Source of the DNA: Desulfobacter vibrioformis DSM 8776
Lineage (GTDB): Bacteria > Desulfobacterota > Desulfobacteria > Desulfobacterales > Desulfobacteraceae
Length of the DNA stretch: 64,000 nucleotides
Direction of reading: 5' to 3'
Assembly: GCF_000745975.1 (NCBI RefSeq)
Contig: NZ_JQKJ01000012.1
Coordinates: 1-64,000 of the forward strand
The notes beneath the pieces were generated by a model. That model searched no databases, was not told the origin of the DNA, and was given only the letters and a program-made list of their open reading frames with translations. Positions 10,835 through 22,704 of the stretch are shown piece after piece. The position numbers and the translations under genes are program-made. Every line of letters starts with the position of its first letter. Position 1 is the first letter of the stretch.

Positions 10835-13487
10835 TATTCACCGTCCCGGCCACAGGGTACCCCTTACCCTCAAACTGGCCATTGAGCTGTTTTTCCGTCT
10901 CAATCCGGCTTAAATAGTGCTGGGTAATACTGTCGGCAAGGCCTTGTAGATCATTGTTCAGTTTTTCCAGCAACGCATCCAGGTTGGGCAGCACATGTTT
11001 TTCCCCAAGTATCATCAGTTCCTGTGTATCTGCCAGGCGCAGCCGGGTGGTCAGATCCAGGATGATCTTCTCCTCCTTTGTCCGGAAAGGGAGGGGGTGA
11101 GGCTTAGGCAGGGTTTCCAGGTGGGAATGAAGTGCTGCCAGCTGAAATCCCACAGACCTTGGGTTTATTTCATCCAGCAGGAGCAGGTCCACCAGGGGTT
11201 CCATGTGAAGGGTGGTCCGGTACCGGGTGTGGTAGGTGATGCGGCTGTCCGCCACCTCAAGCACAGCCTCAAGGTCGTTGGAATCCGGAACCGTGTGCCC
11301 CTGAACCAGACTGGCCATCACGTTTGTCATGTGAAGGGCCCGCTCGATCCGCCTGCCCATGTCCATGAACCGCCACCCCATTCCCCGGGTCATGCTTTCC
11401 AGGGCAAGGCCTGCAAAGGCGGACATATTCAGAATGATGTCGCTGAGCATTTCCAGAATTTCCGCACTCTGGTTTTTGGGGTTGATCCGGACCAGCCCTT
11501 TTTCAATGCGCCCGAGAATCTGCCAGGAATCATCAGAGAGCCGGTCCCTTACCCGGTCTGCCACCTGGAGTGCGTTGTTCAGGCAGTTAAGAATACTGCT
11601 TTGCACCGCAACCCCGTAGATGGACCGGTATAATTCCTTTTCGATAAGTCTTACGGAAAACGAGGCATCAGGCCGGCCAGGATCCGAAGAGATAATTTTC
11701 AAATTAGCCATGACCCGGAAAAAGAACGGCATTTCACTGACCTTGTCCAGCCGGGTTTCGCTGTGTACCCGCATCAAAACGCTTCGGATCACCCGCAGCA
11801 TCCCTTCTGTACGTTCCATGTACCGCCCCAGCCACAGCATGTTATCAGCCACCCGGCTGGGCAGGTCACTTCCCCTGTGAATTTCAAAGGGGGTGGTAAA
11901 ACGGTGGAGCATGCTTTTGAATTCTGTGGGACGCTCGGACAGGCACCAGGCATCCTTGGCCCCTTGCCCTTTTCCCCGGGTGCCGGACAGAACAAGGGTT
12001 TCCGGGTCATCGGCCACCCGGGCCAATCCGCCGGACATGACAGCGGCTTCCACCTGATCCGAGATTTTTGCAGACCCTGGGCCGGCATTCTCCGTGATGG
12101 CGGTCGAGAACATGCGCACGGCCGTGTACCTGTTTTTCATCCCCTGTTCGGACCAGACCGGTACCGTAAAGGGTTCCACCGGGTAATGGCCGGCCCAGGC
12201 ATAGGGCGCGGCCTGGATGGCGGCAATCAGTTCCTGTTTTTTAGGCCCGGCCAGGGACCGGGTATGCACCACCCGGGTATGGGCCGGGCTGAATGCGCTG
12301 TAAAGGGTCATGGGCCGGGTATTGCTTTTTATCTCTTCCGTCACCCGGAACAGGGTGTCCGGTGTTCCCAGCCAGAATGTATCCGTATTTTCAAGGATCA
12401 GGGGTTCGCCCAGAATATCCCGGCATAACTCCGGCAGCAAAGCGAACAGGCCCGGAGATTCAAGAACACCTGAACCCAGCGCATTGCTTATGGCTACATT
12501 GCCTGCCCTGGCGGCCTGAACCAGGCCGGGGATGCCGGGAAATGCTAAGTTTGTGCCCAACAGGGGATCACAGGCATAATCCGGAATCCGGCGCAAAATA
12601 ACATCCACCCGCTGGAGCCCCCCCAGGGTTTTAAGAAACACCCAGTCTCCCCTGGTGGTCAGATCATTGGTCTCCACCAGGGTATAGCCCAGATACCTTG
12701 CCAGAAAAACCTGTTCAAAATAATGGGCACCGGAAGGGCCTTCGCAGAGCATTACAATGCGTGGTTCCTGCTGTTTCTGACCGGATATTTCCATCAGGGA
12801 CATATTCAGATATTTAAAAAACGGGGCCAGCCGCTGGACCTTTCTGGAGTGAAACATCCTGGGCAGAATCCGGGTGAGGATTACGCGGTTTTCCAGGGCA
12901 TACCCGGTTCCGGCCGGTGTCTGGGTGCCGTGGGACCCCACCTGCCACCGGCCATCGGCCAGACGGATGAGATCCGAAGAAAACAGGTGATGATCCGGGG
13001 TAAAGCGATCCGGACCAAACCGGCACTGGCGAAGAAATCCTGGGTTGCCGAATATCAGTTCTGCAGGAATTACCCGGTTTTTGATAAAATTCTGGTGACC
13101 GTAGATGTCTTTAAAGATTAAAGCCAGGAGTTTTGTCCGCTGCTGGATGCCGTGTTCAAGGGTCTGCCAGGTGTGGCTTGAAATGGGTAAAGGAATGGGA
13201 TCAAGGGCCCAGGGCCGTTCCGTGGCGGTTTCCGGGTTGAAAATATTGTAGGCAGATCCGTGTTCCTGGATAATCTGCTGCGCCTTTTGCCAGCGCCGGG
13301 ACAGTTCTGCGGTTCCCAGGCTGTTCAGGTATTCAGCCAGGCCATCCCAATGGGGCGGCATTTTACCGCTGCTGAAATCAACCGCTGTGCTCTGGTTTAA
13401 TATATCTGCGGTAAATACCGGGGTGACAGGCCTTTCCCCGGACGGTCCCGGGTCGTCCCCGGGGATGGATTCATTGGTCAGACGCAT
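10824..13487 (-). CDS. Circularly permuted ATP-grasp ligase fused to alpha-E domain
   Basis: An 887-residue fusion. The N-terminal ~500 residues match the circularly permuted ATP-grasp type 2 family (formerly DUF404/DUF407, COG2308), with blocks such as LALIFKDIYGHQNFIKN, IVMLCEGPSGAHYFEQ and FLKTLGGLQRVDVILRR. The C-terminal ~340 residues match the alpha-E family (DUF403, COG2307), beginning near LPSRVADNMLWLGRYMER. These are usually two adjacent genes; here they are one polypeptide. ATP-grasp enzymes form amide bonds from carboxylates and amines; the alpha-E partner has no known activity. The protein is expressed with the downstream transglutaminase. The product is unknown. Confidence 0.88.
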   Translation of the reverse strand: MRLTNESIPGDDPGPSGERPVTPVFTADILNQSTAVDFSSGKMPPHWDGLAEYLNSLGTAELSRRWQKAQQIIQEHGSAYNIFNPETATERPWALDPIPLPISSHTWQTLEHGIQQRTKLLALIFKDIYGHQNFIKNRVIPAELIFGNPGFLRQCRFGPDRFTPDHHLFSSDLIRLADGRWQVGSHGTQTPAGTGYALENRVILTRILPRMFHSRKVQRLAPFFKYLNMSLMEISGQKQQEPRIVMLCEGPSGAHYFEQVFLARYLGYTLVETNDLTTRGDWVFLKTLGGLQRVDVILRRIPDYACDPLLGTNLAFPGIPGLVQAARAGNVAISNALGSGVLESPGLFALLPELCRDILGEPLILENTDTFWLGTPDTLFRVTEEIKSNTRPMTLYSAFSPAHTRVVHTRSLAGPKKQELIAAIQAAPYAWAGHYPVEPFTVPVWSEQGMKNRYTAVRMFSTAITENAGPGSAKISDQVEAAVMSGGLARVADDPETLVLSGTRGKGQGAKDAWCLSERPTEFKSMLHRFTTPFEIHRGSDLPSRVADNMLWLGRYMERTEGMLRVIRSVLMRVHSETRLDKVSEMPFFFRVMANLKIISSDPGRPDASFSVRLIEKELYRSIYGVAVQSSILNCLNNALQVADRVRDRLSDDSWQILGRIEKGLVRINPKNQSAEILEMLSDIILNMSAFAGLALESMTRGMGWRFMDMGRRIERALHMTNVMASLVQGHTVPDSNDLEAVLEVADSRITYHTRYRTTLHMEPLVDLLLLDEINPRSVGFQLAALHSHLETLPKPHPLPFRTKEEKIILDLTTRLRLADTQELMILGEKHVLPNLDALLEKLNNDLQGLADSITQHYLSRIETEKQLNGQFEGKGYPVAGTVNNEI

Positions 13488-13868
13488 TCAGTTATGTCTA
13501 TGTCAGCACGGTTTTTAACGTATTAATATCAAAGCAGAATTTGCCATAATCACCATGTTTTAAAGGCTCCCACTATAATTGATTCCCCTGAAAGACGCAA
13601 GATCAAAAGGTTGCCTTTTCCGTGCAATTGCGTGTAAAAATCAAAAATCCAGGCGTTTCATCTAATGAACCGTAAGCGCTACGACCTTATTGTGAACACG
13701 GGGATCTCGATTCTGGCACGAAGGCCCTTAAGAACCTCATACTTGATGATCAAGTTTTTATGACTGGCTAAATTTAAACGTCAATCATATAATTACAAAA
13801 TTTGTGAAGCGATATTAATGGGCAAGTTATTTAAAACTCGTTCCTTAATACAGGAGAGGGAGGGTAAA
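13488..13868. other. Intergenic region upstream of the glutaryl-CoA dehydrogenase gene
   Basis: This 380-base AT-rich divergent spacer separates the ATP-grasp gene (minus) from the dehydrogenase gene (plus). It must hold promoters for both, but I could not pick a clear -35/-10 pair. A TGGCAC at 13714 lacks the -12 half of a sigma-54 site. AGGAGAGGGAGGG just before 13869 is a very strong ribosome site and decides the dehydrogenase start. Confidence 0.5.
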
Positions 13869-15032
13869 ATGGATTTTGAATTAAGCAACGCGCTGCAAAT
13901 GCTCCAAAAAGAGATCCGGAACTTTGCAAAAAAAGAGATCACCCCTTTTGCGGACCAGTGGGATGAAGCGCACTACCTGCCCATTGAAGAGGTGATGCGG
14001 CCTTTGGGAGAAATGGGATATTTCGGCACCGTGATTCCCGAAGCGTACGGCGGAGAAGATTTAGGCTTTCTGGCGGCCATGATCGTGACCGAGGAGCTGG
14101 CCAGTGCCTGTTCATCCCTGCGGGTCCAGGTGAATATGCAGGTACTTGGCTGTGCCTACCCCATCTATAAATACGGAAATGAAACGGTCCGTAAAAAATA
14201 TGTGGAAAAGCTGTGCACTGCCGAATATATCGGCGGGTTCGCCATCACCGAACCGGATGCAGGCTCTGATGTCATGAACATGGCCTCCACAGCCGAAGAC
14301 AAGGGCGATCACTGGCTGCTCAACGGCAATAAAACCTGGATCTCCAATGCTGATGTGGCAGACTGCCTGGTTTACTATGCGTATACGGATAAATCCGCCG
14401 GTTCCAAGGGGCTGTCCGCCTTTGTGATTGAGCCCAAAAACTTTGACGGCATCACAACCTCTTCCCTGGACAAGCTGGGTTCCCACTCTTCTCCCACAGG
14501 GGAACTGTTTCTGGACAATGTTAAGGTACCCAAAGAAAACATCCTTGGCAAACCCGGCGACGGTGCCGGGATTGTATTCTCATCTTTAAACCAGACCCGG
14601 CTGTCTGCCGCTGCCGGCGGTGTGGGACTGGCCCAGGCCTGCCTTGACGAAGCCGTCAAATACTGCAATGAAAGAAAACAGTTTGGCAAAAAGATCGGCG
14701 AGTTCCAGATGAACCAGGACATGATCGCCCAGATGGCCACGGAAATTGAAGCCGCCCGTCTTCTGGTCTACAAAGCTGCCTGGGCCAAGGACCAGGGCCG
14801 GTTGAACAACGGCCTGGATGTGGCCATGGCCAAATACATGGCCGGCGAAGTGGCTTACAAATGCGCCAACTTTGCCATGAGAATTCTGGGCGCCTACGGC
14901 TATTCCACTGAATATCCCGTGGCCCGTTACTACCGGGATGCTCCCACCTATGCCATGGTGGAAGGTTCCGCCAATATCTGCAAGTGGATTATTGCCCTGG
15001 ATCAGCTGGGTATCAGAAAAGCGAACAGGTAA
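13869..15032 (+). CDS. gcdH: Glutaryl-CoA dehydrogenase, probably non-decarboxylating
   Basis: A 387-residue acyl-CoA dehydrogenase with FAD- and substrate-binding motifs (FAITEPDAGSD, KTWISNA) and the catalytic glutamate at residue 365 in MVEGSANI. The RVQVNMQVLGCAYPIYKYG stretch aligns with the glutaryl-CoA dehydrogenase branch. ATG 13869 follows AGGAGAGGGAGGG; an ATG at 13818 is much less likely. Known family members either oxidise and decarboxylate glutaryl-CoA to crotonyl-CoA or, as in Desulfococcus multivorans, stop at glutaconyl-CoA. Biotin-dependent glutaconyl-CoA decarboxylase genes in the same orientation downstream (19425-22704) argue for the second type. The two halves of the pathway are now separated by a tRNA and a 4.2-kb element. 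Confidence 0.85.
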   Translation: MDFELSNALQMLQKEIRNFAKKEITPFADQWDEAHYLPIEEVMRPLGEMGYFGTVIPEAYGGEDLGFLAAMIVTEELASACSSLRVQVNMQVLGCAYPIYKYGNETVRKKYVEKLCTAEYIGGFAITEPDAGSDVMNMASTAEDKGDHWLLNGNKTWISNADVADCLVYYAYTDKSAGSKGLSAFVIEPKNFDGITTSSLDKLGSHSSPTGELFLDNVKVPKENILGKPGDGAGIVFSSLNQTRLSAAAGGVGLAQACLDEAVKYCNERKQFGKKIGEFQMNQDMIAQMATEIEAARLLVYKAAWAKDQGRLNNGLDVAMAKYMAGEVAYKCANFAMRILGAYGYSTEYPVARYYRDAPTYAMVEGSANICKWIIALDQLGIRKANR

Positions 15033-15079
15033 CTTTATCAAGCCATCATCAATGATAAGAATCGCAACATTGGTGCTCA

Positions 15080-15172
15080 GGAGAGGTGGCCGAGCGGCTG
15101 AAGGCCCTGCTCTCGAAAAGCAGTATCCCGGTAACACCGGGATCGTGGGTTCGAATCCCACCCTCTCCGCCA
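15080..15172 (+). tRNA. tRNA-Ser (anticodon CGA)
   Basis: The 93 bases fold as a class II tRNA: acceptor GGAGAGG pairs with CCTCTCC, the D-arm contains GGCCGAGCGGC, the anticodon loop is CTCGAAA (CGA, serine), the long variable arm pairs TCCCGG with CCGGGA, and the T-arm contains GGTTCGAATCC. CCA is encoded. It lies 47 bases after the dehydrogenase stop. The last 26 bases are duplicated exactly at 19365-19390, which marks the gene as an integration site. Confidence 0.96.
15147..15172 (+). repeat. attL: tRNA-Ser 3' end, left copy of the 26-bp core
   Basis: These 26 bases (beginning GGGTTCGAATCCC and ending CTCTCCGCCA) recur exactly at 19365-19390 in direct orientation. The tRNA keeps a complete 3' end, as expected when an integrative element restores its target. 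An integrase C-terminal remnant lies ~100 bases inside this end. Confidence 0.9.
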
Positions 15173-15274
15173 AATAAAGCGTAATGATTGAAAATAGTTG
15201 GCTTGAATAAACCCATAGCTTTCACCGCGCTTTCACCACAAAAATCGGTGAAAATTATAGGTTTTATTTTTTAA

Positions 15275-15376
15275 TTATTTGAAATAATAGCCTAAATACT
15301 CTCTAATTTTTCCCACATCCTTTTCAATGCCACTGACATACTGTCCGTAGGTTTCATAGAGGGTGTGTCCCACCTT
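15275..15376 (-). pseudogene. Tyrosine-recombinase (phage integrase) C-terminal remnant
   Basis: On the minus strand this stretch reads KVGHTLYETYGQYVSG followed by ~17 more residues (ending GKIREYLGYYFK) and a stop at 15275-15277. It matches the last ~35 residues of phage-type integrases: the conserved G-H, then the T-Y-G tyrosine box and the D-x-x-x-I-x-x-Y-(F/L)-G tail. A TAA directly upstream (15377-15379) ends the frame, so the rest of the gene is gone. The break coincides with the left arm of a 22-bp inverted repeat. Its place next to the tRNA is where an island integrase normally sits. Confidence 0.7.
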
Positions 15377-15554
15377 TTACATAGAAGTTATGATGCTTTT
15401 GAATTATTCTTATGTCAATACAGTATATTACATGGACGATCTACAAATTTTGTAGATTTTTAACCGCGCAACATCAACTACACTGTAACAAGTTTATTTT
15501 TTAAGTAAGGTTTGCATTTAACGATTATTGCCATGTAAAAGGTGGGACACACCC
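15361..15554. repeat. 22-bp perfect inverted repeat enclosing a 150-bp AT-rich core
   Basis: Bases 15361-15382 (GGGTGTGTCCCACC...) and 15533-15554 (...GGTGGGACACACCC) are exact reverse complements, 22 of 22. The enclosed 150 bases are AT-rich and contain a 19-base palindrome at 15440-15458 (ATCTACAAA T TTTGTAGAT). No coding frame is visible. The left arm includes integrase coding sequence, so this may be a small insertion or an inverted duplication of the integrase end. No flanking target duplication was found. Confidence 0.75.
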
Positions 15555-15597
15555 AATTATAATCATGACTTGAAGCACGATTTTAATTGCCAAATTT

Positions 15598-16062
15598 TTA
15601 TTTAGGGCAGGGATGCCCAGCGCATTCTCCTTCTTCAGGAGGTGTTTCAATTTCATCATCACAATCGTCAAGGCATCCTGCAAGTAATAAAGCAGCTACC
15701 GCTATAGCAAGCTGTATCATTCCCCCGTCTGCGTCTATAGCATCATCTTCTCTCAATCGTTTTTCACGAACGATCTTAAAAGCCTTTTTAAGATCATTAG
15801 GTTTTCCTTGTTGAAGCAATTGAATTACTTTAACAATGCTTTCATGCTCCTTGATTATTGCATTCTTCAAAAAATCACAATCACGTATGATGATTGTAGA
15901 ATCTAACTTTAAGGGATCCATATCACGCAGATCAATTAAAAGTTTGTCCCATGAAGTAGTTGCTGTTCCAATCCCTTGAACTTTGATAGCGTTTTGTAAA
16001 GCTACATCACTTTTACTGAATGCTTTTGGTATAGATCTAAATTCCTGTCGCGACGGATTCAT
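15598..16062 (-). CDS. Hypothetical protein with a hydrophobic, Cys-rich tail
   Basis: A 154-residue protein I do not recognise. The start at 16062 is set by GAAAGGAG 6 bases upstream; a longer frame from 16089 lacks such support. The first ~105 residues are soluble and partly helical (SWDKLLIDLRDMD, IIRDCDFLKNAI, REKRLREDDAIDADGG). Then comes one hydrophobic stretch (MIQLAIAVAALLLAGC) and an acidic tail with further cysteines (LDDCDDEIETPPEEGEC, HPC). A membrane-anchor or secreted-peptide role can be imagined but not shown. It is the tRNA-proximal intact gene of the element, and its upstream region resembles that of the GH18 gene. Confidence 0.55.
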   Translation of the reverse strand: MNPSRQEFRSIPKAFSKSDVALQNAIKVQGIGTATTSWDKLLIDLRDMDPLKLDSTIIIRDCDFLKNAIIKEHESIVKVIQLLQQGKPNDLKKAFKIVREKRLREDDAIDADGGMIQLAIAVAALLLAGCLDDCDDEIETPPEEGECAGHPCPK

Positions 16063-16596
16063 TTTATCTCCTTTCATTAGTTTCCTCAAATCTATCTACA
16101 TTTGATTCACAATTTAAACCGGCCACCCGGGAGCAGCAGGGGGCAACTTAATTTAGGTTATTCCGTATCATTAATTTGGATAGAGATATATCGGGTAAAC
16201 CCTTAGTGTTTTATTGTTTTTTGAGGCCTTGATCATCCTTTGGGACAATTTTGATTATCGAATCATGAATGCTTGTCGAAACACCTTTAACGGCAAGGGT
16301 TTCCGAATTTGAACAATGCCCCAAATTTTCAAGTGGCCGAAACCATGATCAAGGCCTTTTTTTTGTATGGATAGAGATCAATTTTATTGGAGATCAACTC
16401 AAGGCAACCACAATAAATTTGTGGAATAGTTTTTTATATTTAAAGCTTAGGTCCCCGATGGTTCACGGTCCAATGCCGTTTCCTTAAAGGAAATGAGGGT
16501 GCCCTTTTTTAGCAGAGAGTCCTCCTGGTTAGTAGGTTTTAAGGTTAAATTCACCGGACCTGCGCGAGAAGCCGCGTAGGCCGGGGGAATAACTGG
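16063..16596. other. Intergenic region with duplicated leader module
   Basis: This ~530-base gap lies upstream of the minus-strand gene 15598-16062. It holds a leader segment (about 16160-16222 plus 16359-16410) that also occurs upstream of the GH18 gene (about 18045-18145). Here it is interrupted by a 136-bp terminal-inverted-repeat element (16223-16358). Bases 16480-16520 form a small hairpin (CCTTAAAGG) near a T-run. No gene was seen. Confidence 0.5.
16223..16358 (-). repeat. 136-bp terminal-inverted-repeat element, copy 1 (MITE-like)
   Basis: Its ends are GAGGCCTTGATCATC and, inverted, AAGGCCTTGATCATG, about 24-bp imperfect terminal repeats. Reverse-complemented, it matches the element at 18366-18501 closely along the whole length, including the core TTGTCGAAACACCTTTAAC. 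It sits within a run of Ts. The paralogous leader at 18045-18145 has the same flanks without it, which looks like an empty site. No transposase is present. Confidence 0.75.
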
Positions 16597-17970
16597 CTAT
16601 GCAAAGACAGCATTCAGACTTGCAATAATTGCTGTATGGCTGCCGTCTGCCAATGGAACCGTCACGGTGGATCCGCTAAATGCAACTACGCTCTGTTCAG
16701 GTTGGGCAGATTGTGTGAAATGAGTCTGGGTGGTTGAACCAGCCATGGTGCCGAATGGGCCATAAGTGGCCCCGCTTTTTCCGGTTAACGTGAGTTGTAA
16801 AACACATTCCCAGCCATACCATTTACCTGTGTAGCCAGTAATTGAGATAATCGGATCGTCTATCGGAATATTGATTGTTTGAGCGCCCCCGCTATTTCCG
16901 CCGTGTTGTAACAATGTAAAAATCCCGGTTTCCGTATTCTGAGTACCGGTGTTGTATGGGCCAGTCCCGGTATTGACGGCCTGAATTGCGTTGAGTACTT
17001 CGCCCGCGCGGACCGTCATTCGGGTAATGTTTGGATTACCCGCCGCAGCGACAATCGCAGTGTCGTCGAAACTATCTCCGGCAGGAGGATTCGCGAGTTG
17101 AGAAAGAATCATCAACTGTGCCTGCTCGAATTGGTAGTTGCCGGAGTTAAGCCGCCACATAAATATATCCTGGTAATTATAGGATTTGTCCTGGTAATTG
17201 AAGCCCGGAGAGACGGCGCTCCAAACCTGTTGGGCACTGGTGTTAGGTGCTTCATTTCCCGGCTCAAATTGTGCCCCATAGCCAATATTGTCTGGGGACA
17301 TTCCCGCACCAAGAAATTCTGATAATGTAGTGCCGTCGTAGAATTGCGGAGAAACCACATCGAAAGTGCTCTTGAGGGTGGGGAAATCATAGACCGAATA
17401 GTCCCAGGCGGGTGCCATTGTCAGATAATATTTCTCCGGCTGCTGATCAAATACCTGGCGAATCGTGGAAAACAGGATTTTGAACTGCGATTGGGTCATT
17501 CTGTCTGCCACATCTCCCTCCCAATCTACATCCAATCCATTCATGCCATTTTTTTTCAGATAGATCACCAGATTATTGGCAAAATCGGTGGCCTGTGTTT
17601 GTTCATTCCCGCTGGAAAAAATCGCAGATAGGGTTTGATCGCCTTTATATATCATGGTAGCCAAAAATTTGATATCTGGATTAACCTTTCGTGCATCACG
17701 CAACACATAGGTTAAGTAGTCTTGGTTGCTCAACAAGTTGTTCGGATTATCAGCGTTACCAAGATGACAACCATTACCGATCTTGATGGTGAAACCGCTG
17801 CTGCCGGGCACGACTTCAAAAAAGGCAATACCAAGAAAATCCAAACTGTTATAAACTTTGTACTGAATTAAAGATTGAAAGCAGCTATCAGCGCTGTTGT
17901 AGTTGGTGCCGGGGGGCCCATCTTCTTTCAAAAAGATCCATGCATTGATACCGTATGGTAGGCCTGCCAT
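16597..17970 (-). CDS. GH18 glycosidase (chitinase-like) with C-terminal jacalin-like lectin domain
   Basis: A 457-residue protein; the start at 17970 follows AAAGGAG at 7 bases, favouring it over 18018. Residues ~5-290 form a glycoside hydrolase family 18 barrel (GINAWIF, IKFLATMIYKGD, GLDVDWEGD, VVSPQFYD). The usual D-x-x-D-x-D-x-E motif is N144-x-x-D147-x-D149-x-E151: the acid Glu is kept but the first Asp is Asn. Residues ~330-457 look like a jacalin-type lectin fold (IISITGYTGKWYGWECVLQL, GATYGPFG). No signal peptide is present, so it is cytosolic or released by lysis or an injection device. It probably binds and cleaves N-acetylglucosamine polymers. It is the main cargo of the integrative element. 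Confidence 0.78.
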   Translation of the reverse strand: MAGLPYGINAWIFLKEDGPPGTNYNSADSCFQSLIQYKVYNSLDFLGIAFFEVVPGSSGFTIKIGNGCHLGNADNPNNLLSNQDYLTYVLRDARKVNPDIKFLATMIYKGDQTLSAIFSSGNEQTQATDFANNLVIYLKKNGMNGLDVDWEGDVADRMTQSQFKILFSTIRQVFDQQPEKYYLTMAPAWDYSVYDFPTLKSTFDVVSPQFYDGTTLSEFLGAGMSPDNIGYGAQFEPGNEAPNTSAQQVWSAVSPGFNYQDKSYNYQDIFMWRLNSGNYQFEQAQLMILSQLANPPAGDSFDDTAIVAAAGNPNITRMTVRAGEVLNAIQAVNTGTGPYNTGTQNTETGIFTLLQHGGNSGGAQTINIPIDDPIISITGYTGKWYGWECVLQLTLTGKSGATYGPFGTMAGSTTQTHFTQSAQPEQSVVAFSGSTVTVPLADGSHTAIIASLNAVFA

Positions 17971-18365
17971 GTCATTCTCCTTTGTTTTAAAATGAAAGGT
18001 TTTAGAGCTAAAATTCAACTTAATACGGATAACCCACGTTTATCTTGTATCATCTACATATCTATGTGCCTATCAGGGAACCCCTTAATTTTTTATTGTT
18101 TTTTTGTATTGATAGGGGGTGATTTTATTGGAGATTAACAGTATTTTTAATCAGATTGCACGCACAGCAGTGGTTAAAATCCAGGCGGGGCTACCGGGTG
18201 GTGTGGGAGGGCTCCTCAGTGATGGGGAGTCCTATCCCGATTGTGCAAATTATATCTTCATCTTCGTCACCCAACTATGACTTTTTACAGGGATATCATA
18301 TTTTGGATATTGAAATGAAGCCTTAGGGCGCGAATATAACATGACTGGTTGGTTTTTTGCACAAC
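17971..18365. other. Intergenic region upstream of the GH18 gene
   Basis: It contains the GH18 ribosome site (AAAGGAG), the second copy of the leader module (about 18045-18145, with an uninterrupted TTATTG plus seven-T tract), and a strong hairpin at 18206-18239 (GGGA...TCCC outer pairs, then GGGCTCCTCA with TGGGGAGTCC). No gene was seen. The hairpin might be a relic of a structured RNA, but I could not assign it. Confidence 0.45.
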
Positions 18366-18501
18366 GAGGCCTTGATCATCGTTTCGGCCGCTTGAGACTT
18401 TTAGGCATTGTTCAAATTCAAAAACCATTGCTGTTAAAGGTGTTTCGACAAGCATTCATGATTCGATAATCAAAATTGGCCCAAAGGATGATCAAGGCCT
18501 T
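18366..18501 (+). repeat. 136-bp terminal-inverted-repeat element, copy 2 (MITE-like)
   Basis: This is the inverted partner of 16223-16358, with the same ends (GAGGCCTTGATCATC / GATGATCAAGGCCTT) and core (TTAAAGGTGTTTCGACAAGC). The two copies face each other around the GH18 gene. This copy runs in frame into the open frame downstream, so it may have truncated a gene. Confidence 0.75.
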
Positions 18502-18534
18502 GTAGAGGAATATCTTGACAAGGCTGCCAAAGGA

Positions 18535-18690
18535 ATGAAAAAAGAAACATTGATTGAGGAGTACAATTACTTTGCATCGTGCTATGACTGTGATGAGATT
18601 GATGGATGGGATTATGAGGCACAATCAATGGAGTTGGAAATGTTTATTGATGAAGTCTTCAAAGCAATTGAAGAGCAAATTACTGACTAA
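18535..18690 (+). CDS. Small ORF, probably the 3' part of a truncated gene
   Basis: A 51-residue frame starts at the first available ATG (MKKETLIEEYNYFAS...) and is acidic and helix-forming (DEIDGWDYEAQSMELE, MFIDEVFKAIEEQITD). The same frame is open back to 18378, through the inverted-repeat element, without another ATG. Codon use looks coding. No ribosome site precedes the ATG clearly. Probably the remnant of a longer gene whose 5' end was replaced by the repeat element. Function unknown. Confidence 0.4.
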   Translation: MKKETLIEEYNYFASCYDCDEIDGWDYEAQSMELEMFIDEVFKAIEEQITD

Positions 18691-18778
18691 CATTGGGCTG
18701 CAAGAGACCCCTTAATCGCTACATGATAAAGGGACTCACGAGTACAGCCGTCAGGTCTGATAAGATGAGAGGTCGGTC

Positions 18779-19198
18779 ATGGGAATTATGGGAAAATCAT
18801 TCATGAAGTACGCGCAACCGTTGCTCGACGAAACTGACGGTTCGATTGAGAACATGAACAAGGCCTTGTCCCTTGCCCAGCTCTGTTGGAATTTGGCGTT
18901 ACTACCCGAAGACAAACGTGAAGAGATCATCTCGGCGATGCGACCGAATCTTGGGATGGAGAACGCGGAGTTCGACGATCTTCGGCACTCCGTAGTCTTG
19001 CCGATGATCCAGCAGCACCATGAGATGTTTCCGAGCATGACGAGGGGCGGGTCCGCAAGCGCTTCAAAAGCAATGGAAACACTCAAGGCATCCACGACGC
19101 CAACGCACCGGGCACAGGAATTTCCGAAGACAGGACGCAACGCACCCTGTCCATGCGGCAGCGGAAAGAAGTACAAACAGTGTTCACTTTGTCTATAA
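18779..19198 (+). CDS. SEC-C motif protein
   Basis: A 139-residue protein. Residues ~1-95 are helical with no recognised family (SLAQLCWNLALLPEDKREE is the clearest block). The C-terminus is a SEC-C zinc-binding motif, RNAPCPCGSGKKYKQC, as found at the end of SecA and many small proteins. GAGAGG precedes the ATG by 6 bases. The zinc motif suggests protein or nucleic-acid binding. It is the last gene before the right end of the integrative element and is read toward the decarboxylase genes. Confidence 0.75.
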   Translation: MGIMGKSFMKYAQPLLDETDGSIENMNKALSLAQLCWNLALLPEDKREEIISAMRPNLGMENAEFDDLRHSVVLPMIQQHHEMFPSMTRGGSASASKAMETLKASTTPTHRAQEFPKTGRNAPCPCGSGKKYKQCSLCL

Positions 19199-19364
19199 AT
19201 GCTTTCTTTTCAAAGAATGGTGCCGGACCCTACATCATATGTGGAGGTTTTAGATAAAATAATGCGGACTTTTGTGGACTTTCGCCAGAGCGAAACAAAG
19301 ATGGTTTGTATAACATATTGTTTTATTTAAGCATGTTAATATGTTTTGTTCAATATTACCCTGC

Positions 19365-19390
19365 GGGTTCGAATCCCACCCTCTCCGCCA
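19365..19390 (+). repeat. attR: right copy of the 26-bp tRNA-Ser 3' end
   Basis: An exact copy of bases 15147-15172 (GGGTTCGAATCCC...CTCTCCGCCA) with no tRNA 5' part in front of it. It ends 34 bases before the biotin-carrier gene, so the element joined directly to the glutaconyl-CoA decarboxylase operon. Confidence 0.9.
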
Positions 19391-19424
19391 GCATAAATGT
19401 AACAAATAAAAAAAGGAGCCCCAC

Positions 19425-19640
19425 ATGTCTGAAGACGTATTAGCCCCCCTGTCAGGAAAAATTGTCAGCTTAAGTGTTGAGCCGGGTGCAGCAGTGGAAG
19501 AGGACGATGAAATTCTGGTTATTGAAGCCATGAAAATGGAAACCCCCATATTTGCACCCTGTTCCGGCATCGTATCAAAGATTGCCGTAAAGGAAGGGGA
19601 TGCTGTGGAAGAAGATGATCTGCTGGCCGTAATTGAATAG
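19425..19640 (+). CDS. gcdC: Biotin carrier subunit of glutaconyl-CoA decarboxylase
   Basis: A 71-residue biotinyl domain. The biotinylation motif EAMKM is present with the acceptor lysine at residue 37, flanked by the usual VLAPLSGKI and GDAVEEDDLLAVIE beta strands. AAAAGGAG precedes the ATG. It has only the carrier domain; the Ala/Pro-rich linker of longer gamma subunits is absent. It carries CO2 on biotin between the carboxyltransferase encoded next (19670) and the membrane decarboxylase (21586). Confidence 0.88.
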   Translation: MSEDVLAPLSGKIVSLSVEPGAAVEEDDEILVIEAMKMETPIFAPCSGIVSKIAVKEGDAVEEDDLLAVIE

Positions 19641-19669
19641 GCGTCGATCGGTCGTCAAAGGAAGGACAA

Positions 19670-21427
19670 ATGAAATCCTATTTTGAAAACATGGCGCCGT
19701 TTGGCAAAGCGCTCAAAAAAGGGACCATAAAACGCACCCAGAATAACTATGAGCAGGTAATTGAGGCTGAAAAACAGATCTCAGCCGCCGTGGATGAAGT
19801 TAAAAACGCAGGCCTTTCCGAAGAAAAGGTCAACCAGCGCGGCCAGATGACCGTATGGCAGCGGCTGGAATATATCGTGGACCCGGGTACCTGGACCCCG
19901 CTTCATACGCTTTTTAATCCTGCGGACAACGTTGAGGGTACCACCAACGTCATTGACGGCCTTGGAAAAATTGCGGGCAAATGGGCGGTTGTGATCGGTT
20001 TTGACAACAAGGTCATGGCCGGTGCCTGGCTGCCCGGCCAGTCCGAGAACATCTTGAGGGCCACAGACCTTGCAAAAAGGCTCAATATCCCGCTGGTCTG
20101 GCTGGTGAACTGCAGCGGGGCCAAGCTCACGGAGCAGGAAAAATTCTATGCAAACAGAAGAGGGTCCGGCACCCCGTTTTTCAGGCATGCGGAACTTGAG
20201 CAGGAAGGCATCCCCGTACTGGCGGCCATTTACGGCACCAACCCTGCCGGCGGCGGCTACCAGTCCATCAGCCCCACGGTTCTTTTTGCCCATGAAAAAA
20301 GCAATATGGCCGTGGGCGGTGCCGGCATTGTCAGCGGCATGGCCCCCCGGGGCGGGTTTACCGTGGACATGGCCGAAGACCTGGTCCAAAAAGCCAAAGC
20401 ACATCAGGCAAAGCCGCCCGGATCCGTTGCCACCCATTATGACCACACCGGTTTTTTCCGCTTTGTGTACAAGGAGGAAAAGCAGGTTCTGGACGGCGTT
20501 AGAGAATATATGAAAAAGCTGCCGGCCTATGATCCTGAATTTTTCAGGGTGACCAGGCCCAAGGCCCCGGCGTTCGACGCCGAAGATGTCATGCGCCTTC
20601 TGCCCATGGCATCCAAGACCGTATATGATTTTGACGACATCCTGGCAAGGCTTGTGGACGGCTCCGAGCACATGGAATACCGCCCCGGCTACGGCCCTGA
20701 AATCTATACAGGGCTTTGCAAGGTGGACGGATTTCTTGTGGCCTGCATCGGAAACCGCCAGGGGTATCTTGGCAAGGGCTACCCTGAATATGCCGATTAT
20801 CCCGGCATGGGCGCCAAGCTTTACCGCCAGGGGCTTCTCAAGATGAACGAGTTTGTAACCCTTTGCGGCAGGGATAGAATTCCTGTGATCTGGTTCCAGG
20901 ATACTTCGGGCATTGACGTGGGAGATGTTGCTGAAAAAGCCGAACTTTTGGGCCTGGGCCAATCCCTGATCTACTCCATCCAGCAGTCAGGTCTTCCCAT
21001 GATGCTTGCCATCCTGCGCAAAGGAACCGCAGCCGCCCACTATGTCATGGGCGGCCCCCAGGCCAACCGGAACAATGCCTTTACCCTGGGCACCTGTGCC
21101 ACCGAAATCTGTGTTATGCACGGTGAGACAGCTGCGGTTGCCACCTATGCAAGGCGGCTTGTCAAGGAAAAGGAAGCAGGTCGGGATCTTGAACCTGTGG
21201 TGGAGAAGATGAATGCCCTTGCCCAAAAATACAAGGACACATCAACCCCGCTTTACTGCGCAAAACAGGGCATGGTGGATGAGGTGGTAAGGCTTGCCGA
21301 TCTGCGGCACTATATGCAGTCCTTTGCAGGCGCTGCCTACCAGAATCCCAAATCCATCTGCCCCCAGCACCAGATGATTCTGCCCAGAATTATACGGGAT
21401 TACGCTGCAGCAAAGGAAAAGGAATAA
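19670..21427 (+). CDS. gcdA: Glutaconyl-CoA decarboxylase, carboxyltransferase (alpha) subunit
   Basis: A 585-residue acyl-CoA carboxyltransferase, almost exactly the 587 residues of Acidaminococcus fermentans GcdA. It has two crotonase-like halves: the N-terminal half with LPGQSENILRATDLA and YGTNPAGGGYQS, the C-terminal half with WFQDTSGIDVGD and YVMGGPQANRNNAFTLG. It moves the carboxyl group of glutaconyl-CoA to the biotin of the small carrier encoded 29 bases upstream, releasing crotonyl-CoA. Alternative substrates such as methylmalonyl-CoA are possible, but length and the neighbouring dehydrogenase favour glutaconyl-CoA. Confidence 0.9.
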   Translation: MKSYFENMAPFGKALKKGTIKRTQNNYEQVIEAEKQISAAVDEVKNAGLSEEKVNQRGQMTVWQRLEYIVDPGTWTPLHTLFNPADNVEGTTNVIDGLGKIAGKWAVVIGFDNKVMAGAWLPGQSENILRATDLAKRLNIPLVWLVNCSGAKLTEQEKFYANRRGSGTPFFRHAELEQEGIPVLAAIYGTNPAGGGYQSISPTVLFAHEKSNMAVGGAGIVSGMAPRGGFTVDMAEDLVQKAKAHQAKPPGSVATHYDHTGFFRFVYKEEKQVLDGVREYMKKLPAYDPEFFRVTRPKAPAFDAEDVMRLLPMASKTVYDFDDILARLVDGSEHMEYRPGYGPEIYTGLCKVDGFLVACIGNRQGYLGKGYPEYADYPGMGAKLYRQGLLKMNEFVTLCGRDRIPVIWFQDTSGIDVGDVAEKAELLGLGQSLIYSIQQSGLPMMLAILRKGTAAAHYVMGGPQANRNNAFTLGTCATEICVMHGETAAVATYARRLVKEKEAGRDLEPVVEKMNALAQKYKDTSTPLYCAKQGMVDEVVRLADLRHYMQSFAGAAYQNPKSICPQHQMILPRIIRDYAAAKEKE

Positions 21428-21430
21428 CGC

Positions 21431-21589
21431 ATGGGTGATGCGGTCAGGGTATTTCTCATCGGCCTTTTGGGTGTATTCACAGGCATGACTTTTCTTTACT
21501 TTTCCATTAAGATTACCCAAACGGCGGTTACCGCGGTGGAATCAAAAAGGAAAGCCAGGGAAGTTGCCGGGCAAGGGGAGGACAAATGA
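21431..21589 (+). CDS. gcdD: Small membrane (delta/gamma-type) subunit of the decarboxylase
   Basis: A 52-residue frame begins at ATG 21431, 3 bases after the gcdA stop, and its TGA overlaps the next ATG (ATGA). It has one hydrophobic helix ([19 protein letters not shown]) followed by a short charged tail ([16 protein letters not shown]). Position and topology match the OadG/GcdD subunit that links carboxyltransferase to the membrane pump. Known delta subunits are ~100 residues with a Pro/Ala-rich tail, so this is a minimal form. Confidence 0.7.
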
Positions 21590-22704
21590 GTACTTTGTAT
21601 TCCCTGTTTCAGACCACGGGCTTGTTTTATGTCACCCCGGGCATTGTGGTCATGTGGATCATCGGACTGACCCTGATTTACCTTGCCATTGCAAAATCCT
21701 ATGAACCGTTGCTGCTGCTTCCCATTGGATTCGGGATCATTCTGGCCAACCTGCCCCTGGCAGGACTTATGATCCCCCATGAAGGGCTGATCTGGAAATT
21801 TTACGAGTATGGCATTCACTGGGAGATTATTCCGCCGGTGATATTCCTGGGCCTTGGGGCGCTCACGGATTTTGGGCCGCTCATTGCCAACCCCAGGCTG
21901 ATTTTCCTTGGTGCCGGGGCCCAGGCCGGGGTGTACATCACCTTTTTTGCGGCCCAGGCCTTTGGATTTGATCTGAAAGAGGCGGCAACCATCGGTATCA
22001 TCGGCGGCGCAGACGGGCCCACCACCATATTCCTGGCATCCAAACTGGCCCCGTCTCTTTTAGGTGTCTGCGCCGTGGCAGCCTATTCCTACATGGCCCT
22101 TGTGCCCATTATCCAGCCCCCGGTGATGAAACTTTTGACCACCGCAGACGAAAGACGAATCCGCATGGCCAAGGGCAGAAAGGTGGGAAAGCTTGAAAAA
22201 ATGCTGTTCCCCATTGTCTCCACCTTTGTCATCATCCTGCTGGTTCCGGCATCCGCGCCGTTGATCGCCATGTTCATGCTGGGCAATCTGTTCAGGGAGT
22301 CCGGTGTGGTGGGGCGTCTGCACGATACAGCCCAGAACGAACTGATGAATATCGTCACCATCTTTCTTGGGATCTCCGTGGGCGCCACCATGAATGCGGA
22401 AAATTTTTTAAGGCCCCAGGTGATATTTGTCTTTTGCCTGGGGCTTTTTGCCTTTGTGATCTCCACCATGACAGGGGTACTCCTTGCCAAGCTCATGAAC
22501 CTTTTTTCCAAAAATAAAATAAATCCCCTGCTGGGTGCAGCCGGTGTCTCGGCCGTACCCATGGCTGCCAGGGTGGTTCATAAGGTGGGCATGGAAGCGG
22601 ATAAGAAAAATTATCTGCTCATGTATGCCATGGGGCCTAATGTGGCAGGTGTTATCGGCACCGTGATTGCGGCGGGTATTTTTCTGACCCTTTTAGGGGG
22701 GTGA
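21586..22704 (+). CDS. gcdB: Na+-transporting glutaconyl-CoA decarboxylase, beta subunit
   Basis: A 372-residue polytopic membrane protein of the OadB/MmdB/GcdB family. The signature [18 protein letters not shown], with the conserved aspartate, and [22 protein letters not shown] are present, as is NAENFLRPQ. It decarboxylates carboxybiotin and exports sodium ions, conserving decarboxylation energy. It overlaps gcdD by 4 bases and ends the operon. Together with glutaryl-CoA dehydrogenase it converts glutaryl-CoA to crotonyl-CoA. Confidence 0.93.

Follow-up and report, generated by a model that had tools for sequence, protein, structure and literature searches.

A decayed tRNA-Ser-targeted island between glutaryl-CoA dehydrogenase and the predicted glutaconyl-CoA decarboxylase genes of Desulfobacter vibrioformis

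Genomic islands and integrative elements can be placed at the 3' ends of tRNA genes by tyrosine integrases. In Desulfobacteraceae, the gcdH-gcdCADB pathway consists of glutaryl-CoA dehydrogenation followed by sodium-pumping glutaconyl-CoA decarboxylation. We analysed a 64,000-nucleotide stretch of the Desulfobacter vibrioformis DSM 8776 genome (hereafter the window), in which a tRNA-Ser-targeted integrative element sits between gcdH and gcdC (Table 1). Like other tRNA-targeted islands, this element is bordered on either side by directly repeated copies of the tRNA 3' end, leaves the tRNA complete, has integrase sequence next to attL and carries foreign cargo. Unlike them, it is small and decayed, with 29 integrase residues, and the tRNA that it targeted is located within a cluster of catabolic genes. 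The insertion is thus of an ordinary kind, the relic of a tRNA-targeted island, and is well supported by an empty site in related genomes; the less ordinary part is a patchily distributed tRNA at an operon junction. A literature search found no published description of a Desulfobacter gcdH-tRNA-Ser-gcdC island.

Table 1. Coordinates of the island, its borders and the neighbouring catabolic genes (positions in the window).
Feature	Position	Strand	Basis or remark
gcdH (Acd), glutaryl-CoA dehydrogenase, desulfobacterial kind	13869-15032	+	NCBIfam NF045552
tRNA-Ser(CGA), complete, integration target	15080-15172	+	ARAGORN; Rfam RF00005 at 15080-15169
attL, last 26 bases of tRNA-Ser(CGA)	15147-15172	+	Exact repeat
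Tyrosine integrase relic, last 29 residues and stop	15278-15364	-	Translation; G020 match
MITE-like repeat, 194 bp, 31-nt terminal inverted repeats (87%)	15361-15554		Repeat search
Cargo ORF, 163 aa, no assigned family	15598-16089	-	ORF listing
134-nt hairpin repeat, copy A	16224-16357		Repeat search; DNA fold z -4.2
Cargo gene, GH18 glycosidase domain and jacalin-like lectin domain	16597-17970	-	Pfam
134-nt hairpin repeat, copy B, inverted relative to copy A (92%)	18367-18500		DNA fold z -4.8
SEC-C cargo gene, 139 aa, motif C-terminal	18779-19198	+	PF02810, E 1.7e-8
attR, second exact copy of the tRNA 3' end	19365-19390	+	34 bases before gcdC
gcdC, biotin carrier subunit	19425-19640	+	PF00364 (Biotin_lipoyl), E 1.8e-18
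gcdA, carboxyltransferase subunit	19670-21427	+	PF01039 (Carboxyl_trans), E 1.8e-97
gcdD-like small membrane subunit	21431-21589	+	PF04277 (OAD_gamma), weak match; position
gcdB, sodium-pumping decarboxylase beta subunit	21586-22704	+	PF03977 (OAD_beta), E 7e-157

The tRNA-Ser(CGA) was the sole tRNA found in the window by ARAGORN; a 5S rRNA gene was also found near the window start (183-299, Rfam). The original prediction had reported a 26-bp exact direct repeat of the tRNA 3' end, and both copies were confirmed where it had placed them. The two copies are identical and the adjoining bases differ on each side; by our own estimate, a sequence this long would contain such a 26-base repeat by chance with a probability of roughly 1e-6. 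Furthermore, the junction without an insert, gcdH-tRNA-Ser(CGA)-gcdC, which had been proposed as a check in relatives, was present in two genomes of the same genus (G023 and G025), where gcdH and gcdC are 162 bases apart, with the gcdH stop codon counted and the tRNA included. Because of the exact repeat and this empty site, we identified 15173-19390 (4,218 bp) as an insert at the tRNA 3' end. Without it, the gcdH stop and the gcdC start would be separated by 174 bases (140 on the gcdH side of the insert and 34 on the gcdC side), and not by about 140 as first predicted. When the window flanks were joined across the repeat and aligned, the bases following the tRNA in G023 and G025 matched the right flank of the window (after 19390) and not the left flank (after 15172). 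Integration into a tRNA 3' end predicts such a match: the outer copy would be the chromosomal original, and the element would have supplied the copy within the tRNA.

It is very probable that a tyrosine-integrase element entered the 3' end of tRNA-Ser(CGA) between gcdH and gcdC and then decayed to a 4.2-kb stranded island. With the tRNA gene already in place between gcdH and gcdC, the element would have recombined with the 3' end of that gene and rebuilt the tRNA with the 26 terminal bases that it carried itself, and the original 3' end would have stayed behind as attR. Nearly all of the integrase would have been lost later, with the MITE-like repeat now abutting its leftover C-terminus. The remnant would be the stranded island with its GH18-jacalin gene, SEC-C gene and several hairpin repeats, and the decarboxylase genes may now be read from another start or by read-through.

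The junction was compared across the genus. At a threshold of E 1e-100, gcdA was present in 17 of 19 genomes, the window's genome included; another genome of the genus (G013, 99% complete) had no gcdA match at this threshold, and the decarboxylase may be missing from it. The genes gcdH-gcdC-gcdA-gcdB were collinear in 13 of the 16 relatives with gcdA, and the window shares the genes, order and orientation of this cluster. The gap between gcdH and gcdC (stop codon counted) was 23-25 bases without a tRNA in 8 of these 13 relatives, 52 bases in G020, and 181 bases in G022, in which it holds a hairpin-like insert and no tRNA. The tRNA was present at the junction in three relatives, the two described above and G024; in the latter the gap was 306 bases in all with the tRNA, and the spacers around the tRNA were longer and different. 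In the window, gcdH and gcdC are about 4.4 kb apart, whereas the relatives have 23-25 bases (eight genomes) or the tRNA-containing spacing of the empty site (two genomes). The three non-collinear genomes (G017, G019 and G021) had a gcdA that was 72-74% identical and no gcdC in the stretches fetched; gcdH was on the opposite strand in two of them, and none was seen in the third, where the contig is short. Palindrome-like inserts of about 130-160 bases were also observed in gcd operon gaps of six species, namely in the gcdH-gcdC gap of G022 and in the gcdC-gcdA gaps of G012, G016, G018, G023 and G028; by eye, five are alike (GTGTTTG...CAAACAC) and that of G028 is different.

The original prediction held that the element had split a catabolic operon. 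The collinear pair in relatives and the insert between its two genes agree with this claim, but the tRNA had already parted the genes. Because the element landed in a tRNA gene already separating gcdH and gcdC, the splitting of a tight operon cannot be put down to the element alone. The island enlarged a gap pre-made by the tRNA, and the fused, tRNA-split and island-split states all exist in the genus.

A DNA search (E 1e-10) found tRNA-Ser(CGA) in 4 of the 19 genus genomes, always at the gcdH-gcdC junction. A pattern search gave 22 matches in 20 of 86 family genomes; the match in G059 was not a tRNA by ARAGORN, and one at locus L140, cut by a contig end, was not called by that program. The flanks available for the 18 loci from other genera contained neither gcdH nor gcdC nor gcdA. 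A scan for an integrase motif in other genera, over flanks of up to about 1.5 kb, gave two matches (L138 and L142), both in ORFs overlapping the tRNA, and we took these flanks to contain no integrase beside tRNA-Ser(CGA).

The four genomes with the tRNA do not group as one clade, and at least three to four changes are needed, depending on the tree. The IQ-TREE rpoB tree covered 17 of the 19 genomes (G017 and G019 were without usable rpoB), or 14 if scoring was limited to genomes in which the genes are collinear, and the IQ-TREE tree of the gcdA-gcdB stretch had 16 rows, including two outgroups. Each of these trees required four or more tRNA changes, and forcing the four tRNA-bearers together was rejected (AU p 1e-66 for rpoB and 2e-64 for gcdA-gcdB). 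With FastTree, three changes sufficed for rpoB and gcdH, and four were needed for gcdA-gcdB; the window's genome paired with G024 in the FastTree rpoB and gcdH trees. In both IQ-TREE trees, G023 grouped with the tRNA-free G029 and G025 with the tRNA-free G026, each with support of 100/100. The spacers 5' of the tRNA were similar in G023 and G025, which suggests an old tRNA with several losses, and gains may also have occurred. A recombination tract found no support as the source of the tRNA in G023 and G025, in which the gcdH end and gcdC best matched those of the tRNA-free sisters G029 and G026; short tracts are possible. Two 300-base steps, within the junction and beyond it, showed a dip in G023-G029 identity to 89-90%, and for the initial 600 bases of gcdA in G025 the best match was G018 (89.7%), with G026 close behind (89.5%).

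A study of Pseudomonas fluorescens (PMC7661048) describes a growth defect after serCGA deletion that was offset by extra serTGA copies, indicating that a tRNA-Ser(CGA) can be lost. It is rather unlikely, in our judgement, that the junction is a recurrent landing and loss site of a dispensable tRNA-Ser(CGA), at which tRNA-using elements drive repeated gain or loss of the tRNA and switch the operon between its fused, tRNA-split and island-split states. It is very unlikely that the element brought the whole tRNA-Ser(CGA) with it and that the tRNA in G023, G024 and G025 is the footprint of departed elements. Such import would fit the occurrence of the tRNA in so few genomes of the genus, scattered outside a single clade and each time at this junction, as well as the tRNA-free short junction being the commonest state; however, the common spacing and similar upstream spacers of G023 and G025 look like common ancestry of a resident tRNA, and, where a junction lacks the tRNA, no target is known for an integrase that acts on tRNA 3' ends. 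Also against import, the 26-mer occurred once in each of the 14-15 kb stretches around the tRNA in these three genomes, with no further exact fragment of 14 bases or longer. We therefore favour entry of the element into a tRNA gene already in place.

The integrase C-terminal relic that had been predicted inside the left end was confirmed by comparison with a relative. Its 29 residues matched the C-terminus of a 420-aa ORF of G020 (61% identity over 28 residues, E 3.2e-6), and the G020 protein is a Phage_integrase by Pfam (59 bits, cut-off 27.1) that also has an arm DNA-binding domain. Among the 86 family genomes, G020 was the only other genome that matched the relic at E 0.01, and a PHROGs search with the 29-residue relic alone gave no match. 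Because no tRNA was seen in the 3-kb locus read around the G020 integrase, G020 does not demonstrate the use of tRNA-Ser by this integrase type. That the insert arose by chance duplication or an assembly join in place of site-specific integration is scarcely credible. The division of the assembly into 86 contigs and the lack of this insert in the relatives examined would speak for it, but the repeated bases coincide exactly with the end of a tRNA, the integrase relic adjoins them, and the sequence outside both copies agrees with the empty site in relatives.

Site-specific integration was very probably followed by decay. The relic terminates at the MITE-like repeat, of which a related copy in two pieces is present on another contig of the same genome (C23:3400-3542), with short end matches on C13, C14 and C20. 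No intact integrase was seen among the element's ORFs of at least 50 aa, four of which were scanned against Pfam, NCBIfam and PHROGs profiles. The same scan of these four cargo ORFs recognised no replication genes and no conjugation or phage structural genes, that is, none of the conjugation or virion genes by which an ICE or a prophage is defined. The insert is a decayed integrative island. After loss of its integrase, the island would be unable to leave alone, and excision in trans is conceivable. Because no second genome among the relatives examined carries the element, we infer its mobility from its anatomy.

The cargo had been described as AT-rich and unrelated to the surrounding genes. 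The G+C content was 0.363 over 15173-16500 and 0.426 over the whole element, compared with 0.53 in gcdH and 0.535 over 19425-22704, so the cargo is AT-rich overall; the GH18 gene is less so (0.471). The 163-aa ORF had no Pfam or NCBIfam match and one weak PHROG match (E 0.027). The ORF at 16597-18018 matched PF00704 (E 4.3e-13) and PF01419 (E 9.9e-10); a relative of its GH18-jacalin protein was found in 1 of 85 other family genomes at E 1e-20, and none was found in phages, plasmids or IMG/VR. Of 290 other genomes sampled from the order, 3 had relatives of the SEC-C protein at E 1e-15; in IMG/VR it gave 19 matches, 18 of them restricted to the C-terminal end. A phage, plasmid or viral origin of the cargo was not borne out by the phage, plasmid and IMG/VR searches. 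In the stretches read near the SEC-C relatives and the lone GH18 relative, the integrase motif was absent. The two hairpin copies lie in opposite orientation on either side of the GH18 gene, and the hairpin occurs at six places in its own genome, these two included, of which three are partial. A 69-bp direct repeat was also observed on both sides of the GH18 gene, at 16189-16398 (with hairpin A inside) and 18071-18139 (no hairpin); hairpin A sits in a run of T within the former copy.

As originally predicted, gcdH and the decarboxylase genes have the same orientation, both on the + strand, and their profiles match. The gcdH product scored above the NF045552 cut-off (787.5 bits, cut-off 470). 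Judged from its profile matches, 19425-22704 is a predicted sodium-pumping glutaconyl-CoA decarboxylase in which all four subunits have Pfam matches, the small one below the cut-off (OAD_gamma, E 3e-4, 21.8 bits, cut-off 27). With other profiles, gcdB scored 507.4 bits against TIGR01109 (cut-off 190.6), gcdC scored 67.8 bits, below the NF004547 cut-off of 75, and gcdA scored 125.7 bits, far under the mmdA cut-off of 998.8 (NCBIfam). The closest three gcdA relatives were in MAGs labelled Desulfobacterales bacterium, Desulfobacter sp. and Desulfobacter postgatei, with 93-96% protein identity. The decarboxylase genes had no internal stop, and their dN/dS against same-genus genomes was low (for gcdA against G022, dN 0.021 and dS 0.292), with values averaged also over the time before the insertion. 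On these two grounds, the decarboxylase genes are probably still in use.

Before the insertion, gcdH and the decarboxylase genes would have been cotranscribed. With the island in place, the decarboxylase genes would need a start 3' of most of the insert, or read-through. A promoter within or near the right end of the element had been proposed for them; however, a consensus scan for sigma-70-type sites found no + strand site in 19199-19424, and this new promoter is thus unsupported, although one of another type is conceivable. The one sigma-70-like site in this interval was on the - strand. Over 13400-19700 the scan gave 16 sites, close to the number in shuffled sequences (mean 12.7, sd 3.2).

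The locus is a clear natural case in which a tRNA-using element inside a metabolic cluster parts two consecutive pathway steps with no gene broken. The patchy occurrence of tRNA-Ser(CGA) bears on the gain and loss of dispensable tRNA genes. Because fused, tRNA-split and island-split junctions occur in one genus, their effects on the expression of an energy-conserving pathway are directly comparable.
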